Shown here piece by piece: positions 3,994 through 31,963 of a stretch of 32,177 nt of DNA. Location of the stretch: assembly GCA_938002255.1 (NCBI GenBank), contig CALLAL010000016.1, positions 139,038-171,214 of the forward strand, in the 5' to 3' direction. The stretch's first letter is position 1; each line of letters opens with the position of its first letter. The translations under genes and the position numbers were made by a program. The notes under the pieces were generated by a model that saw only the letters and a program-made list of their open reading frames with translations, searched no databases and had not been told where the DNA came from. Source of the DNA: an uncultured bacterium. GTDB taxonomy: Bacteria; Desulfobacterota; BSN033; UBA1163.

Positions 3994-5442
3994 ATGTCCT
4001 TTAATTCCCTCGCCTTTATTTTCTTTTTCCTTTTAGTCTCAACCCTCTATTTTGCCCTTCCACATCGCTGGCGATGGATTTGGCTCCTCGGGAGTGGTTA
4101 CTATTTTTACGTGACCTGGAAACCTGTTTTTCTTCTCTTCCTTGTGGCCCCAACGGTCCTGACCTATCTCTTAGCCTTACAGATGGGTAAGGTGAGCCTG
4201 TTCTCCAAAAGGAAAAGTTATTTACTCCTCTGTGTTCTGTTTAACCTCTCCCTCCTTTTTATTTTCAAATATTCCTATTTTTTTTATCATTCTTTTCGAG
4301 ACGTTTTGGGGCTTTCCTCCCATGCGCCTTCCTTTACGCTTCTTCTGCCGGTAGGGATCTCCTTTTATATTTTTAAATGCATAAGTTATGGTATGGATGT
4401 TTATCGGGGAACTCTAAAGCCTGAAAAGCATTTTGGAAGGTTTGCCCTTTATGTTTCTTTCTTCCCTCAACTTTTAGCTGGGCCCATTGAAAGGGCAACA
4501 AACCTCTTGCCCCAATTCTACCAAAGATTTCAATTTGATTATCAAAGGGTAACGGGCGGAATCAAAAGGATGCTATGGGGATTGTTCCAGAAAATGGTCA
4601 TCGCAGACAACGTGGCGAAACTGGTGGACTCCGTTTATAGCCAGCCAACTCAATATGAAGGCGTCACCCTGATGATCGCCACCGTTTTTTATGCCTTCCA
4701 GATTTACTGCGACTTCTCAGGTTACTCCCATATAGCTATAGGCGCAGCTCAGGTATTGGGATTCAAAACAATGGAGAATTTCAATCACCCCTATTTTGCC
4801 AAATCCATTCCTGACTTTTGGCGAAGATGGCATATTTCACTCTCCACATGGTTCAGGGATTATCTTTACATCCCCATGGGCGGCAAACGAGTTTCTATGC
4901 CTCGATGGTGTTTCAATTTGCTTATGGTGATGTTCATCTGCGGTCTCTGGCACGGGGCAAACTGGACCTTTGTGGTCTGGGGTGGGCTTCACGGATGTTA
5001 TCTCGTCCTGTCTGTAGCCACTCAACAGGTAAGGGAAAAGGTATGCGACGTCATTGGTCTGAAGAGAGTACCAAGATTTCATCAAGGACTGCGGATGGGG
5101 ATGACGTTTTGTCTCGTCTGCCTCGCCTGGATCTTTTTCAGGGCAAATTCAATCACAGATGCCCTCACGATCCTTCGCCATATATTTACAGGATGGGGAA
5201 ACCTTTCAGGAATCCTGGGACGTTTTCCTTTCTGGATGGAAATGCGATTTGAGTTCCTCATCGGGTTGATATCCATCGGAGTTCTTGTCGGGGTAGAGAT
5301 CTTAGAAAGAAAAGGGCCTCTTTTTTTTCTCCTCAATTCAAAACCCCTTTGGGTCCGCTGGTCTGTCTATTACACCCTTTTACTCTCCATCTTACTTTTT
5401 GGAGAATTTGGTTTCGTGCAGTTTATTTATTTCCAATTTTGA
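3994..5442 (+). CDS. MBOAT-family membrane O-acyltransferase (AlgI-like)
   Basis: A 482-residue polytopic protein of the membrane-bound O-acyltransferase family. It moves an acyl (usually acetyl) group across or along the inner membrane onto an exported polysaccharide. AlgI-type features are the N-terminal MSFNSLAFIFFFL, the LLPVGISFYIFKCISY segment, DFWRRWHISLSTWFRDYLYIP (about 275-295), and WHGANWTFVVWGGLHG, whose last histidine is the family's catalytic one. It has roughly ten hydrophobic segments. The length matches AlgI/PatA/DltB relatives. The next gene encodes an AlgJ/AlgX-like SGNH protein ten bases away, so the two likely act as an O-acylation module. Confidence 0.93.
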   Translation: MSFNSLAFIFFFLLVSTLYFALPHRWRWIWLLGSGYYFYVTWKPVFLLFLVAPTVLTYLLALQMGKVSLFSKRKSYLLLCVLFNLSLLFIFKYSYFFYHSFRDVLGLSSHAPSFTLLLPVGISFYIFKCISYGMDVYRGTLKPEKHFGRFALYVSFFPQLLAGPIERATNLLPQFYQRFQFDYQRVTGGIKRMLWGLFQKMVIADNVAKLVDSVYSQPTQYEGVTLMIATVFYAFQIYCDFSGYSHIAIGAAQVLGFKTMENFNHPYFAKSIPDFWRRWHISLSTWFRDYLYIPMGGKRVSMPRWCFNLLMVMFICGLWHGANWTFVVWGGLHGCYLVLSVATQQVREKVCDVIGLKRVPRFHQGLRMGMTFCLVCLAWIFFRANSITDALTILRHIFTGWGNLSGILGRFPFWMEMRFEFLIGLISIGVLVGVEILERKGPLFFLLNSKPLWVRWSVYYTLLLSILLFGEFGFVQFIYFQF

Positions 5443-5451
5443 AGGAAAGAG

Positions 5452-6531
5452 ATGAAAAAGTTCTTTTTGAGATCTTTACTCTTTTTACTGCCCTTCTTCG
5501 TCATCCTCTTCATCGAACTCTTTATGGTTCCCATAGATGTTTTCACTTTCCGAGCATGGGAATCTCTTGTGGTGCGGAAATACAAAACGGTTCTTCCCGG
5601 CCCATTCTATCCCAATCAAACACTGACGAAAGTAGAGGAAGGCGATTTGGCACACCACACTCCATTTGCGATCAAGAAGACTGTCCAATGGATCACAGAC
5701 CGTCATGGGTTTCGAAAATGGAATACGGATACGAAAAAATATCCGATGGTTATCATTGGAGACTCGAATATCGCAGGGGCCAGTTTGAGCCAAGAAGAGA
5801 TGCTGTCAGAAGTACTGGAAGCGGATTTGGGGATCAGTGTTTATCCTTTTGCCCCTGCCGGGATGAATTCTTTCTTAAAAGAGGAACGATTCAAGGAACA
5901 TCCACCAGACATCGTCATTTACGCAAGGGTCGAACGAGAGTTATTTGATTTATCCCCCATTAAACTGCGAAGAGATTGGAAGTGGGTATCCCGATTAAAA
6001 AATAGAGTAAGACATCTCGATTTCCTCCAAGCGATCTTTATCTATTTGGACCGTATGGCCAAAGGAAATATGCTCCATTACCTGAGGGCGAGTCTCAGAA
6101 GATCTTTTAGAGGGACACAGACTCATTCTCAAAGAGGAATGGAATCTATCTACGGCCGTCTCTTTTTCCTTCCACAGGCGAAGGAGGGCCAATCGATCTC
6201 TAAAGAAAAGATCAGAAACATCGCCGAAGTCATTCGATCCTACCGGGATGCGATGGCAAGCCGGGGAATTCGATTCATCTTTCTGCCCATCCCGGATAAA
6301 GAGAATATTTTTCATGAACTCCTTCAAATTTCAAAACCCACTTTTTTAGAACAATTGACAGATGAATTAGAGAGAGAAGGTGTGGAAACCCTCCATACAG
6401 TTAAGGCCTTTGAGGAGGCTTTTCGAGAAAAACAGATCCTCCTTTACCATCCAGATGACACCCACTGGAATGTCCATGGGGTAAAACTTGCTGCAACGTT
6501 GATCAAAAAACGATTAACGAATGAGAAATAG
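5452..6531 (+). CDS. AlgJ/AlgX-like SGNH-fold O-acetylation protein
   Basis: A 359-residue protein with an N-terminal signal anchor (about 5-27) and a predicted periplasmic body. SGNH-hydrolase features are GDSN at 103-106 (nucleophile S105) and DDTHWN at 335-340 (the Asp-x-His pair, with H338). AlgJ and AlgX of Pseudomonas alginate clusters share this layout and complete acetylation in the periplasm next to AlgI. The middle (about 190-240) is basic and less conserved. The gene follows the MBOAT gene by ten bases with the ribosome site GAAAGAGATG. The acyl-transfer role is inferred; the acceptor glycan is not identifiable. Confidence 0.78.
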   Translation: MKKFFLRSLLFLLPFFVILFIELFMVPIDVFTFRAWESLVVRKYKTVLPGPFYPNQTLTKVEEGDLAHHTPFAIKKTVQWITDRHGFRKWNTDTKKYPMVIIGDSNIAGASLSQEEMLSEVLEADLGISVYPFAPAGMNSFLKEERFKEHPPDIVIYARVERELFDLSPIKLRRDWKWVSRLKNRVRHLDFLQAIFIYLDRMAKGNMLHYLRASLRRSFRGTQTHSQRGMESIYGRLFFLPQAKEGQSISKEKIRNIAEVIRSYRDAMASRGIRFIFLPIPDKENIFHELLQISKPTFLEQLTDELEREGVETLHTVKAFEEAFREKQILLYHPDDTHWNVHGVKLAATLIKKRLTNEK

Positions 6532-27223: not shown

Positions 27224-28531
27224 TTAAGAGGCTACGGCCTGTAATTGCGGGCTATCAGGAATTGGATCTTCCTCAATCTCATAGATGGTGGGAGCAGAAG
27301 GTTCGGAGAGATCGAAAATCCTACCCTGATCATCTCCGATCATTGGGCACAAGGGACGGCCTGTGTGAGTTTCAACAATTATTCCTTTCGTTCCGTCTGA
27401 TAGGACTACTTTACGACCAGGGGAAAGTATATTCAGAAGTAAGAGAAAAGCGGATACGTATTCTTTGTTGAGTTTTTCTGCCAGGGCGTCTCTGATCAGG
27501 ATGGTAGCAGCTTTCGCGACAGATAATGCCGGTCGGTAAGGGCGGACGGTCCGAAGGGCATCATAGACATCGGAGATGGCTACCAGCTGGCTTGCAAAAT
27601 GAAGGGGATAATAAGGCAAACGATGCTGAATCTTGGGATAACCTGATTGATTGTAACCCATATGATGCTGGTAAGCGACTACCGGAAGAAGGGGATAATT
27701 AGTTTCAACATTAGGTATTTCGAGAAGTAATTTGGCACCCCAAAAAGGATGTTTTTCCATGAATTGCCATTCCTCTGGCTGAAGAGCTTTTTTCTGGTGC
27801 AAAATCTCCTTAGGGACTTCCTTTTTTCCAAGGTCATGGCAAAGGCCAGCCATGGCAATGGTATTGACCATCTCTTCAGAAAAGCGAAGGGCCCGTGCGA
27901 GGGCTGATGAAAGGATACAGACATTGAGGGCATGCGTATAGGTATAATCATCAAAATTTTTAAGCTCTCGAATAGGCTCGAACAATTCCCGGCCGATGGC
28001 TAATCGAGAGACAATGGTGCAGACGACCTCTCGTGCTCGAACAATGCCCTCAGGTTTTCTGGCTTCAAGATCCGTCAGAATTCCCTGGGCTTCAGCCAGG
28101 AATCCCAGATATCCCATAATGGAACGGGTCAGAAGGGATTGAGGAGAAGTTCGCTGCTGGAGGTTCATTGAACCAGCGACGATTTTATGACTTTGATAGG
28201 GTGTCCGGTTTTTTGAGACGATATGTTCAATCCAGTCAACCAAATCCTCAGCCTCTGCATCCGCCTCAATATGAATGCTTTCAAATCCGAGCTGTTGGAG
28301 GGACTGAAAAAAAGCTTGGAAAGAAAAAGGGATAGGATCGATCCTCCGGTCCTCGATAATGAGATCTTGTCCGAGGAGAGTAATTCTCACCGACCGTCCC
28401 CATTCAGATAGTCTCTGATGAGCCTGTTTGGCGGATTGAAGAACCTGCTTGCTTCCCTCCGGGTAGATTCGGCGCATTCTGAAGAGACCGCCAAGGTTAT
28501 TGAGAAAGTAGTTAAGAACGTCTTGTGCCAT
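27224..28531 (-). CDS. Degenerate HD-GYP-type protein with unidentified N-terminal domain
   Basis: A 435-residue protein. The HD part (about 190-345) shows H200 in YTHALNV, H232-D233 in CHDLGKKEVP, H261 in KHPFWGAK, H289-H290, and DVYDALRTVRPYR. In cyclic-di-GMP phosphodiesterases the GYP motif is HHExxDGxGYP; here it is HHMGYNQSGYP, so the Glu, Asp and first Gly are replaced. Metal-binding residues are kept, so it may be catalytically altered. Residues 1-110 (NLGGLFRMRRIYPEG...DLIIEDRRID) resemble the N-terminus of the protein encoded just upstream. Transcribed with it (17 bases between). A role in c-di-GMP or other nucleotide signalling is inference. Confidence 0.78.
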   Translation of the reverse strand: MAQDVLNYFLNNLGGLFRMRRIYPEGSKQVLQSAKQAHQRLSEWGRSVRITLLGQDLIIEDRRIDPIPFSFQAFFQSLQQLGFESIHIEADAEAEDLVDWIEHIVSKNRTPYQSHKIVAGSMNLQQRTSPQSLLTRSIMGYLGFLAEAQGILTDLEARKPEGIVRAREVVCTIVSRLAIGRELFEPIRELKNFDDYTYTHALNVCILSSALARALRFSEEMVNTIAMAGLCHDLGKKEVPKEILHQKKALQPEEWQFMEKHPFWGAKLLLEIPNVETNYPLLPVVAYQHHMGYNQSGYPKIQHRLPYYPLHFASQLVAISDVYDALRTVRPYRPALSVAKAATILIRDALAEKLNKEYVSAFLLLLNILSPGRKVVLSDGTKGIIVETHTGRPLCPMIGDDQGRIFDLSEPSAPTIYEIEEDPIPDSPQLQAVAS

Positions 28532-28548
28532 ATCCTTTTAATTCGATT

Positions 28549-30300
28549 TTAGGAGCCTGAGAGAGTCATGGGCAAAGATCCCTGCTCCTGTGCCAATGTA
28601 AGGTTATAGGTTATGGATTCAGCCCTCTTAAGTGCCTTCATGGCTTCTTTTTTAACTTTAGGATGGGGATGTTGAGTCAGAGAACGGAGGTGAGGGAGTA
28701 CCTGGGGAAAACCCTGTTGCCCAAGAACAATTGCCAGATTTCGAGTCACATACCAGGGCCCTAATCTTGATTTGGACACAAATATGGGTGTTGCGGCAAA
28801 AGAGAAACAGGACAAAAGGTTCACAAGAAAATAGCGGGTAGAGATGTTTTTTTCTTCGCTCAGTGCCTTAAGAGCAGTATCAAGAAGGCATTTTTCGTGG
28901 TTTACTGCAAAATGAATAAGCATCTGTCGCTCATGGAACGTTGCTTTTCCAATGGATGATAGGCATTTTTCAAATAGGGATCGGACGAGATAAGGGTTTG
29001 CGTCGAGAAGCCTTGGAAAGGTTCGATCAACCATGGCAATAAAACTGAGAACACCGAATGGCCCTAACTGTTCTGCACGAAACTTGATGCGATCGAGTAT
29101 TTTTTGTTGAAAGGATTCCTCTTCTTCGACCCCCATCGCCAAAAACAGGTGGTCTAAAAATTGTTCGGGTGATTCCAGAATAGAGTCCGTTGCCTCGTCT
29201 GAGGATAATACCCTTGAAGACTCCATTAAAAATCCGAGTGAGTCAGAATACTCCGAGTCCATGAATGGGTTATCACTCAGGTTTAGAATCAAGGTTTCTA
29301 CGGTTTTCCAGACGTCTACAGGAAAGCCGCTTTCCTCAGACTGTGCCATCCTCGATCGAACTAGCGATAGGATTTCATGAGGTTGGGCAACTGGAGTGAA
29401 CCGTCGATAAACCTCAATAAATTTTTGTGTACCCTGTTCTCCCATAGCTGCAAGGCCTGCAAGGAGGTCAACGAATCGTTCAATATCAATATCCCTCAAT
29501 AAGGACGACTTCCCGAGTCCCAGCCTTTTCGATTCCTGTCCTTCCCGTCCCACAATCCGAACCAGGTCTTTGATGGCAAGACACTTTCCCATCTGGGAAA
29601 GGTAATTCAGAATTTCTTCACGTTGTGCAGAGGGGAGAAGGGCCAGAGCCTCTTCGAGGCGTTCGCCCAGCTTGAGCAGAAACTCGGTAAACCCTTCTGA
29701 ATCGCCGAGTCCTGATCTTGTCCATTCCGCTTTAGCCGAATCCCAAAATTCCTGAGTAGCAAGAGCAGAGGCTAACTGCTCAACTGGCGCTTCCTGGCTT
29801 ATCAGGAAAAGCCAGGCTCGGCGTCGCCTCTCTTCAGGCGTTTCCTCGGAATCCTGAAGAGTATCCAATGCCCTGCGGTGAATCTCGTTAAGGTTTAAAG
29901 TGGTGATATCAATTGTCAGGACTTCGCTGCGGAGTTTTTCTCTCAATGCCTCCCCTTCAAGTTTTGGAGTGGACACTGCCCGAGCAAAAGCCCAGACATC
30001 GTCGAGAGAAACCTCTTTTTGCCAGACCAATTGAAGAATCTTCTTTTCATGGAGGATGGATGCCAGGTCGCTGGCTTTCCCTGTGATGAATTCCCCTGAG
30101 ACGATCAATTCTTTCGAAGTTACACCGATTGTCAATGCTCCTGGGAAATCCAGTGGTGCAGACTGTAGAACTTTTTTCGCTACTTCAATCATGGTGGGGT
30201 GTTTCGTTGGATAGACACGAACCCCCCGAATCAGGTGTAACAGATTGAGGGCAAAACCTTCCACTCTTCTGGCAATAGGAGATGAATTTTTAAGCTTCAT
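28549..30300 (-). CDS. Large alpha-helical HEAT-like protein of unknown function
   Basis: A 583-residue soluble protein with no signal peptide or membrane segment. Residues 1-110 (NLLHLIRGVRVYPTKHP, then TIGVTSKELIVSGEFI and VSLDDVWAFARAV) resemble the N-terminus of the downstream HD-GYP-type protein. The rest is helical; HEAT-like repeats are most visible near 500-570 (VLPHLRSLTQHPHPKVKKEA). No catalytic motif is recognised. The ATG at 30300 is preceded by GACGGGA. As the first gene of a two-gene unit, it may be a scaffold or sensor for the HD protein; this is inference. Confidence 0.7.
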   Translation of the reverse strand: MKLKNSSPIARRVEGFALNLLHLIRGVRVYPTKHPTMIEVAKKVLQSAPLDFPGALTIGVTSKELIVSGEFITGKASDLASILHEKKILQLVWQKEVSLDDVWAFARAVSTPKLEGEALREKLRSEVLTIDITTLNLNEIHRRALDTLQDSEETPEERRRRAWLFLISQEAPVEQLASALATQEFWDSAKAEWTRSGLGDSEGFTEFLLKLGERLEEALALLPSAQREEILNYLSQMGKCLAIKDLVRIVGREGQESKRLGLGKSSLLRDIDIERFVDLLAGLAAMGEQGTQKFIEVYRRFTPVAQPHEILSLVRSRMAQSEESGFPVDVWKTVETLILNLSDNPFMDSEYSDSLGFLMESSRVLSSDEATDSILESPEQFLDHLFLAMGVEEEESFQQKILDRIKFRAEQLGPFGVLSFIAMVDRTFPRLLDANPYLVRSLFEKCLSSIGKATFHERQMLIHFAVNHEKCLLDTALKALSEEKNISTRYFLVNLLSCFSFAATPIFVSKSRLGPWYVTRNLAIVLGQQGFPQVLPHLRSLTQHPHPKVKKEAMKALKRAESITYNLTLAQEQGSLPMTLSGS

Positions 30301-30640
30301 ATTTGATTCCCGTCAGTATTTCTCCAATAAGGTCATATTGTTAATCCAAAAATAGGTTTCTTTTTCTGGAATATTTAGCAATTCCAGTGCCATAGAAATT
30401 TTTATCTGTAACTCACTGAAATAACACAGATATTTTTGGATAAAATCTGTAAAAGAAGGCTCAAACTGCCGCATTTTGTCACGGGAAATTTAAAGGTTTC
30501 TTAGTAATCTAAAACCCTTAATCCCTAAAAAAGAGATAGGAACTCAAAGGAATAAAAAAATCCTTTTGGTCAAGAGGTTTCGGTGATATAGAATATCACC
30601 TGTAAGGTGAAACCAAAAGACCAAAAGGAGGTTGATAGTC
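30301..30640. other. Gap between HEAT-like gene and transposase
   Basis: This 340-base AT-rich region contains the presumed promoter and left end of the insertion sequence. Bases 30302-30322 include CCCGTCAGTATTTC, which resembles the reverse complement of bases near 32020-32040 and also the general form of IS1380 termini as I recall them. The match is short enough to occur by chance. The left boundary of the element is therefore not fixed. The leader hairpin near its right end is listed separately. Confidence 0.4.
30562..30628 (+). promoter_or_regulatory. Long hairpin overlapping the transposase ribosome-binding site
   Basis: Arms at 30562-30581 and 30609-30628 pair over 16 of 20 positions: CCTTTTGGTC and GGTTTC pair with GAAACC and GACCAAAAGG, with a four-base mismatch bubble between. 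A second hairpin (GGTGATA at 30582-30588 against TATCACC at 30594-30600) is nested inside. The right arm covers the first half of AGGAGG (30626-30631). In RNA it would hide the ribosome site when transcription starts upstream of it. Confidence 0.75.
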
Positions 30641-31963
30641 ATGATACAGCAAACCATCTTCCCATTCAAGATAGAAATGACGAAGGAGAGACTAACGGCC
30701 CATGGGGGTCTGGCCTTGATGGCAGAATTCAATCACGGAATTGGGCTGAGAGAGCTGACGGATCGATATCTTCCGGGTCCTGGGAGCAATCGGGGATTCG
30801 AGCCTTCGGAGGTGGTGGATGCAGTGGTGTTGGTGTTGCAAGGGGGTGGGAGAAGCCTGGAGGATTTAAGAGAGCTAAAGAATGAGGGAGGCTTAATGAA
30901 GCTGATTGGTCGAGGGGAGATTCCAGAGCCAGATACGGTGGGAGATTGGCTAAGGAGGATGGGAGATCCCAAGACAGGGCAGTTTGGATTAAAGGGGTTG
31001 GATCGGGTCAGAGACAAGATTAACGAGAGGATTTTGAAAAGGGATGGGATAGAGCAATACACTTTAGATGCTGATGCTACAGAGATTATTGGGGAGAAGT
31101 CTGATGCTTTCTTTACTTACCATGGGAACAAGGGTTACATGCCGATGGTTGGATTTTTATATGAGACGGCGGTTTGTCTTTATGATGAATTTCGGGAGGG
31201 CAATGTAGCCCCTGCCTATGGGCAGAAGGAATTTTATCTTGAGTGTAAGAGACGAATGCCTGAGGGCAAGAGGATTGGATATTATCGTTCGGACAGTGCT
31301 TCGTATCAGGCGGATCTTTTCAATCAGTTAGAGGAGGATGGGGTGAGGTATGGGATCACGGCGGATCAGGACAAGGCGGTGAAATTGGCCATTGCTTTGA
31401 TTCCGAGGGGGGATTGGAAGGAGCCGGTGCGGGGATGTGGTTATGAGTTAGCGGAGACAGTTCATTGCATGAACGGGACGAAGAAGGCTTTTCGTTTGGT
31501 GGTAAAGCGAGAGATTCGGAGGCAGAGGGAACTCTTTGAGAAAGGGGAACAGTATTTTTATCACGCTGTGGCGACGAATTGGTTGGGGGAGGAGAAGAAT
31601 ACGGAGGAGGTTCTTAGGTGGCATAATCAGAGGGGACAGTCCGAGAACTTCAATAAAGAACTCAAGATTGGGTTTGGAATGGAGCGGATGCCTTGTGGGC
31701 AGAGCTATGCCAATGCTGTGTTTTTTCGAATCGGAGTCCTTGCTTATAATCTTTTCATTGGATTCAAACGACTTTCGTGTCCAGAGTCATGGGCGAGACA
31801 CACTATTGCTACGTTTCGTTGGAAGATGGTGGAGGTGGCTGGTCGGATTGTGAAGCACGCTGGAGAGATGGTTTTAAAGTTGATGATCGATCTGGAAAAA
31901 CTGGAACTATTTCGGGGGATCAGGAAAAAATCATTTGAATTGAGTTTATGTCCAGACGGGTGA
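30641..31963 (+). mobile_element. IS1380-family transposase
   Basis: A 440-residue DDE transposase. YTLDADATEI (D143/D145), then GNKGYMPMVGFLYETAVCLY, YYRSDSASYQ (D218), and RGQSENFNKELKIGFGMERMPC (E335) are IS1380-family landmarks. I chose the ATG at 30641 because AGGAGG lies nine bases upstream. The frame is complete and uninterrupted, so the element may be active. Codon use is G-rich in the third position (GGG, GAG, AGG) and unlike the neighbouring genes, in line with recent transfer. Terminal repeats and target duplication could not be defined with confidence. Confidence 0.88.

Follow-up and report, generated by a model that had tools for sequence, protein, structure and literature searches.

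A HEAT gene and an HD-GYP gene are adjacent at the end of a contig

We analyzed a 32,177-bp stretch of DNA from an uncultured bacterium of the Desulfobacterota (positions 139,038 to 171,214 of contig CALLAL010000016.1, assembly GCA_938002255.1; hereafter the window). We focused on two adjacent genes in it, one for a protein with HEAT-type helical repeats (the HEAT protein) and one for a protein of the HD-GYP phosphodiesterase type (the HD protein) (Table 1). The window ends where the 171 kb contig ends, and the genome is 3.27 Mb. The HEAT gene is upstream of the HD gene, with a gap of 17 bp between them, and the two proteins begin with the same N-terminal domain (ND). A first-pass annotation, made from the sequence alone, had reported both open reading frames (ORFs) and a segment, NLxxLxRxxRxYP, common to their N-termini. 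The positions were correct and the segment is exact in both proteins.

Table 1. Features of the HEAT/HD gene pair. Coordinates are positions in the window. pLDDT, predicted local distance difference test score; pTM, predicted template modelling score.
Feature	Coordinates	Strand	Evidence
HD-GYP-type protein (435 aa), downstream gene	27224..28531	-	HD_5 65.8 bits (cut-off 27.2)
HEAT-type partner protein (583 aa), upstream gene	28549..30300	-	HEAT_2 30.4 bits (cut-off 27.7)
ND of the HD protein, residues 1-127	28151..28531	-	AlphaFold blocks mostly pLDDT 81-96
ND of the HEAT protein, residues 8-135	29896..30279	-	pLDDT 88.8, pTM 0.81, modelled alone
NLGGLFRMRRIYP, shared motif, HD protein residues 12-24	28460..28498	-	Tyr23 invariant in alignments A3, A5
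NLLHLIRGVRVYP, shared motif, HEAT protein residues 19-31	30208..30246	-	Tyr30 invariant in alignment A4
Helical linker from ND to catalytic domain, HD protein residues 133-179	27995..28135	-	AlphaFold model
HD-GYP catalytic domain, about residues 186-367	27431..27976	-	H200, H232, D233, H261, H289, H290, D321, K236 present
HHMGYNQSGYP, HD protein residues 289-299 (altered HHExxDGxGYP)	27635..27667	-	Alignment
Small C-terminal beta-rich extension, HD protein residues 370-420	27272..27424	-	AlphaFold model
HEAT_2 match, HEAT protein residues 515-559	28624..28758	-	30.4 bits (cut-off 27.7)

The partner had been called helical and HEAT-like, and this was borne out. Like other HEAT-repeat proteins (HEAT_2, PF13646), the window HEAT protein has helical repeats in its C-terminal part that score above the cut-off. 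The match is a single, weak stretch in the window protein and is strong in related ND proteins, for example L186, L188 and L191 (L numbers denote loci that we collected). Unlike plain HEAT-repeat proteins, the window protein has an ND ahead of the repeats. Searching by sequence, we found no solved structure for it. We saw no obvious membrane segment in either protein of the pair (19-residue hydropathy maxima of 1.5 and 1.8).

The two proteins share an N-terminal domain

The shared part had been described as a strand-rich region of about 110 residues. We found that a shared region exists, but that it is longer (about 125-140 residues in both proteins) and of alpha+beta structure, not simply strand-rich. 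We made a profile from an alignment of 26 HD proteins alone (alignment A1). This HD-only profile matched 56 ORFs. Two of these were HD proteins and were excluded. The remaining 54 were distinct upstream ORFs without an HD domain, each matched in register in its N-terminal part (a few overlap as fragments of a single gene: L013/L062, L044/L079 and L050/L082). When the alignments of the HD and HEAT proteins were compared with hhalign, only the N-terminal 137 columns aligned, with a probability of 98.7% (E = 3.4e-16). The ND profile had no matches among 2002 reversed ORFs. Because of these three results, the likeness of the N-termini is far above chance, and chance resemblance was ruled out.

We also compared predicted structures of the two domains. 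The AlphaFold model of the HD protein, built with its HD relatives, had a pLDDT of 82.2. The N-terminus of the HEAT protein was modelled separately, from an alignment of 51 rows that held HEAT-borne and other non-HD sequences and no HD protein. Both models have the topology helix-helix-three strands-helix-strand-helix-strand. The HEAT ND has one additional helix ahead of the last strand, and otherwise the elements come in the same order as in the HD ND. That is, the separately predicted topologies agree with each other and with the profile match.

The first-pass annotation could not name this domain, and neither could we. None of the 51 HEAT-borne NDs reached the cut-off of a Pfam family (the best matches were scattered: DUF2482, E = 0.004; InvH, E = 0.0026), and NCBIfam named neither N-terminus of the window pair. 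Sequence searches of the PDB with ND profiles gave weak rows only, none of them significant; the best, Octarellin (a designed repeat protein), and a connected cytochrome were judged to be artefacts of short matches. Searches by fold gave a best E of 0.23 with Foldseek and a best Z of 2.9 (44 residues, 2.6 Å; unrelated proteins) with VIA, which was used to align 850 Foldseek-ranked chains, so that a known fold is still possible.

The gene pair recurs and is inherited as a unit

The first-pass annotation had taken dissimilar N-termini, or a lack of pairing in relatives, as grounds for refuting its reading. Neither was the case: the N-termini match, and pairs of such genes are present both in relatives and in the window's own genome. 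In the own genome, the only ND matches (six at E <= 1) were the two halves of three HEAT/HD pairs, and four of seven HD matches were without an ND. In a phylum sample, ND was found in 65 of 148 genomes. Among the 150 ND places listed from this sample (drawn from 63 of the 65 ND-positive genomes), 106 were in 53 same-strand pairs, 8 were tandem copies in four proteins, and 36 were single. When 20 of the single and tandem loci were inspected, 5 turned out to be pairs too, one partner being weaker.

We compared HD-GYP proteins that have an ND to those that lack one, using a named set consisting of the best 80 loci of one scan, not a random sample. An ND protein was encoded immediately upstream of 27 of the 30 ND-bearing HD proteins. 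In contrast, this was true of no ND-less HD protein (0 of 54): for 26 there was no ORF within reach upstream, and for the other 28 the upstream ORF was unrelated. The Fisher value for this association is 5e-19, calculated as if related loci were independent. The three exceptions were the first HD protein of L094 (the upstream ORF is HEAT only and is cut by the contig start), L114 (at a contig start) and L141, where the ND ORF overlaps the HD gene beyond what our adjacency rule permits. Locus L094 (1298-6356), from a metagenome-assembled genome (MAG) labelled Cyanobacteria, has consecutive genes for HD, ND-HEAT and HD proteins, so that a single HEAT gene has an HD-GYP gene on either side.

We collected 48 complete, distinct pairs. 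Of these, 26 are in records whose labels span 11 phyla, and the other 22 are from further relatives. The phylum labels are those of the MAG records and some may be wrong (Cyanobacteria, Actinomycetes, Myxococcota on records named only Deltaproteobacteria bacterium). In 18 of the 48 pairs the two genes overlap by exactly 4 bp, which suggests that translation of the HEAT and HD genes is coupled. In the window's own family (27 pairs), the tree of the HD proteins and the tree of the HEAT proteins have the identical three clades. Therefore, the pair has been duplicated and inherited as a unit.

The N-terminal domains fall into two classes

We compared the 48 HD-borne NDs to the 48 HEAT-borne NDs. 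In a tree of these 96 domains (a quick one, as is the catalytic-domain tree below; 145 to 173 columns), the two kinds were split by one change, with support of 85 in the Shimodaira-Hasegawa-like approximate likelihood ratio test (SH-aLRT), versus ~32 changes when the labels were shuffled. Cross-validated class profiles recovered the class of 94 of the 96. The split was slightly blurred when NDs from other architectures were added to the tree (3 changes for the HD group and 4 for the HEAT group, versus 1 before). The simplest history would be one early divergence into two partner-specific versions of the ND, with no later swapping between them.

These results bear on the possibility that the genes are accidental neighbors, unrelated to each other and alike at their N-termini by chance. 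The unit does look isolated, as we saw no conserved flanking gene within the window's family when gene order and lengths were compared. Accidental proximity is nevertheless refuted by the recurrence of the pair, the homology of the ND, the split into classes and the matching clades, and we consider its probability negligible.

The HD protein retains an HD-GYP catalytic centre with an altered motif

From the motif HHMGYNQSGYP, the first-pass annotation had proposed a degenerate phosphodiesterase. The altered motif is present, but degeneracy is not supported: we found that the catalytic centre has been spared. The HD_5 match is well above its cut-off (Table 1), and the His and Asp metal ligands of an HD domain are in place. 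We compared the window protein to PmGH, using the ligands and mutants listed in the accessible part of PMC4159591. Residues H200, H232, D233, H261, H289, H290 and D321 align with the PmGH ligands, and the window protein keeps all seven ligands that both HD-GYP groups have in common, the catalytic Asp and Lys, the GYP and the guanine-binding Arg. Much the same holds for the family. The seven ligands are intact in 47 of the 48 paired HD proteins (the window protein included), which rules out a loss of metal ligands. The equivalents of K236, GYP and H261 are present in 48 of 48, and the equivalent of Arg314, which in PmGH contacts the guanine of cyclic di-GMP (c-di-GMP), in 47.

What is altered is the canonical signature, HHExxDGxGYP. 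The window protein keeps HH and GYP, and the Glu is replaced. We found the Glu in none of the 48 paired proteins, compared to 54 of 54 ND-less proteins (the scan patterns that gathered the loci left out this position). In its place the paired proteins have Met (22), Leu (15), Ile (5) or other residues. A Met, Leu or Ile in place of the Glu is thus a mark of the paired family, and a motif without Glu is its norm. The Gly of DG is also absent, in 38 of 48. With both residues lost, the substrate could differ. When the Glu column was left out of the catalytic-domain tree, the paired proteins still separated by one change (SH-aLRT 89). The Glu change and the ND are therefore perhaps a single old event, to be counted as one.

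The accessible part of PMC4159591 does not name the Glu of HHE among the metal or substrate ligands. It describes a Y/F subgroup of HD-GYP proteins, in which Tyr or Phe replaces the metal ligand E185 (in motifs such as Y-T-Y) and the centre is binuclear. The window protein has Y196-T-Y at this third-metal ligand position, and the paired proteins have Tyr (43/48) or Phe (1/48). Given a Tyr at the eighth ligand position, the paired HD-GYP enzyme is probably binuclear and of the Y/F type. We conclude that the paired HD proteins are a variant of the HD-GYP family and not canonical members, because the fold and ligands fit HD-GYP, but HHExxDGxGYP fails and the architecture is bound to a partner.

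Comparison to solved structures

The window HD protein is predicted to have the HD-GYP fold; the structures closest to its model, as determined with VIA, were all HD-GYP proteins. DvhD (9rbz; Z 19.4 over 191 residues, 4.6 Å) and PmGH (4mcw; Z 19.1 over 181 residues, 3.6 Å) were tied, and PA4781 (4r8z) had Z 17.9 over 189 residues (5.2 Å). Like these three proteins, the window protein has the seven shared ligands, the catalytic Lys and GYP. Unlike them, it has an ND and a HEAT neighbor that looks obligate, a hydrophobic residue at the Glu of HHE, and a Tyr at the third-metal ligand position. The best structural match was to Bd1817, an unconventional HD-GYP protein from Bdellovibrio (3tm8/3tmb; Z 24.5 over 261 residues, 4.0 Å). 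This alignment covers residues 28..367 of the window model; that is, it extends past the catalytic domain. Bd1817 was found neither by sequence with the ND profiles nor by fold with the ND model alone. According to the accessible part of PMC4159591, Bd1817 is inactive and is without the Tyr of GYP. The window protein, unlike Bd1817, keeps this Tyr. By sequence, the top PDB match of the family profile was V-cGAP3 (5z7c), a 3'3'-cyclic GMP-AMP (cGAMP) phosphodiesterase from Vibrio cholerae (E = 1.5e-42, catalytic domain). The aligned motif in V-cGAP3 is HHEKLDGTGYP, with the Glu present, and no ND or HEAT part was matched.

It is possible that the HD protein is a degenerate enzyme, serving as a non-hydrolysing receptor for c-di-GMP or pGpG that signals to the HEAT protein. 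The change of HHE to HHM (Met, Leu or Ile in most relatives), the frequent loss of the DG Gly and the reported inactivity of the closest structure would fit such a role, as would a suggestion, in the accessible part of PMC3774798, that slow HD-GYP enzymes act as sensors. One would expect ligands to be missing from a degenerate site, however, and those of the paired proteins are nearly always intact, with the Lys, GYP and H261 equivalents present throughout. We therefore think a receptor improbable. It is also possible that the protein is an active enzyme on some other nucleotide, be it pGpG, a dinucleotide of the cGAMP type or a different phosphodiester, and that HH[M/L/I] marks the changed specificity. 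The perfect linkage between the Glu change and the ND, the separate grouping of the catalytic domain without the Glu column, and the match to the V. cholerae cGAMP enzyme speak for this. Against it, the residues that contact guanine in PmGH are largely kept, an Ala that PA4781 lacks (PMC3774798, accessible part) is present in the window protein as A325, and the Glu is not one of the ligands named for HD-GYP proteins in the source cited above. We consider a different substrate to be about as unlikely as a receptor. Judging from the conserved residues, the downstream protein most likely hydrolyses c-di-GMP.

The domain is also found in other signalling proteins

We found the ND in several architectures other than the pair. 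There are single ND-HEAT proteins (L186, L188 and L191, mentioned above), an ND protein of 1680 residues that also has HEAT, cNMP and PilZ domains (L179), and a 1414-residue protein with GGDEF and STAND-like AAA domains, two NDs and HEAT repeats (L175:1530-5771). The last could be the pair's c-di-GMP-producing counterpart in one chain. The ten tandem NDs formed their own supported group in the tree, and eight of the ten scored closer to the HD class, which rules out tandem proteins with one ND of each class.

Several other ORFs carry the domain. Tandem-ND ORFs that resemble the one in L175, as judged by ND matches and length only, are present in L176, L177 (twice) and L178. In L189 (4394-6112) an ND is fused to HisKA and HATPase_c, and the start of the next ORF resembles a response regulator by eye. 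ND proteins of ~740 residues with no Pfam domain over the cut-off are encoded in L180 (3686-5902) and L185 (4404-6626), the latter with a weak trace of GGDEF (E = 0.004). Both genes are preceded by an ORF of ~300 residues whose start resembles a protein kinase by eye. Loci L181-L184 have ND ORFs akin to these two, compared on length and ND layout only.

The ND therefore belongs to signalling proteins and is tied repeatedly to synthesis, binding or breakdown of c-di-GMP. Two NDs tend to come together, either in trans or in cis. The window's own genome has 5 GGDEF and 6 PilZ matches, so c-di-GMP signalling is likely present there.

The first-pass annotation had suggested that the pair is a sensor module. 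This is plausible, and the evidence favors the ND as a pairing (dimerisation) domain at least as well. If the ND were a ligand sensor, both proteins, each with its own ND, would sense one small molecule. The HD-GYP protein would respond by catalysis and the HEAT protein by a different output, and the two would not form a complex directly. The N-terminal position is typical of sensors, and the ND is joined to varied outputs (HisKA-HATPase, GGDEF, PilZ/cNMP). PAS and GAF proteins are among the Foldseek rows for the ND, so weakly (E 0.2 to 3, TM about 0.2) that they carry no weight. The two unmixed ND classes, the strict adjacency of the genes and the tandem NDs in one chain fit better with a domain that works in twos. 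On balance we regard independent sensing as rather unlikely, if less so than a receptor or a changed substrate.

A model for the pair

We think it reasonably probable that the pair is a bicistronic, cytoplasmic c-di-GMP module in which an active, binuclear HD-GYP enzyme is controlled by a HEAT scaffold through contact between the two NDs. Here we infer the activity, the ND-ND contact and the scaffold role; what we computed is the homology of the two NDs, the intact catalytic centre, the constancy of gene order and spacing, the inheritance and duplication of the genes together, and the old split of the NDs into two classes. The HEAT protein would be made first, in coupled translation, and would capture its HD-GYP enzyme by binding of the HEAT ND to the enzyme ND. 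By contacting a client protein, the HEAT repeats would position or gate the phosphodiesterase, with a local change in c-di-GMP as the result.

Several observations weigh against this model. The best structural match, Bd1817, is reported to be inactive (PMC4159591, accessible part), and the Glu and the DG Gly are absent from 48 and 38 of the 48 paired proteins, respectively. Solo HEAT proteins and a histidine kinase have an ND but no HD partner, so that an ND need not always pair with another ND. We looked for fusions of HEAT and HD parts in a single ORF, as direct proof of contact, and there were none among 2002 ORFs. Lastly, joint inheritance is by itself also compatible with two proteins of one pathway that do not touch.

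A broader version of the model is more tentative, and we hold it to be somewhat less probable than its alternatives taken together. In this version, the ND is a so far undescribed domain working in twos, and a single ancient event would have given rise to a HEAT-scaffold version and an HH[M/L/I] HD-GYP version. The resulting two-protein machine would have been kept across many bacterial phyla as an unrecognized branch of cyclic-dinucleotide signalling, possibly with an altered substrate, with the GGDEF-AAA-ND-ND-HEAT proteins as its synthesising counterpart in one chain.

HD-GYP enzymes are usually viewed as single proteins that are regulated by a fused sensor or receiver. Here, a large and old HD-GYP branch seems to be organized as a unit of two genes, one of them for a scaffold, and is recognizable by one residue (HH[M/L/I]) and one domain. 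The spread of the pair over many bacterial groups points to an ancient two-part signalling unit. This unit is apparently undescribed: we found no description of a HEAT/HD-GYP pair in the titles and abstract starts of open PubMed Central papers, a search that leaves subscription papers mostly outside, so that an earlier description is possible. If the partners bind, the pair would provide a simple means of controlling c-di-GMP locally, and a function would be assigned in one stroke to a set of adjacent genes for HEAT and HD-domain proteins across many environmental bacteria. The model makes testable predictions as to which protein binds which, and whether the signature residue sets the partner or the substrate.

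Other features of the locus

The model of the HD protein has a small beta-rich extension beyond the catalytic domain, with strands, of lower confidence, at residues 374-377, 382-388, 396-399, 405-407 and 416-419. Many but not all of the relatives in alignment A1 have this extension (27272-27424 in the window), and it is possibly a small barrel domain. The neighbors of the pair are a gene for a flavin adenine dinucleotide (FAD)-dependent oxidoreductase, on the opposite strand, and one for a transposase of the IS1380 family. The transposase gene (30632-31963; NF033539, 304.6 bits, cut-off 180) is divergent from the pair and near the contig end. Elsewhere in the window (3994-6531), a gene for an MBOAT acyltransferase adjoins one for an AlgX-like protein, the pattern of a polysaccharide O-acetylation system; the window thus carries both this pattern and a module of the c-di-GMP type.

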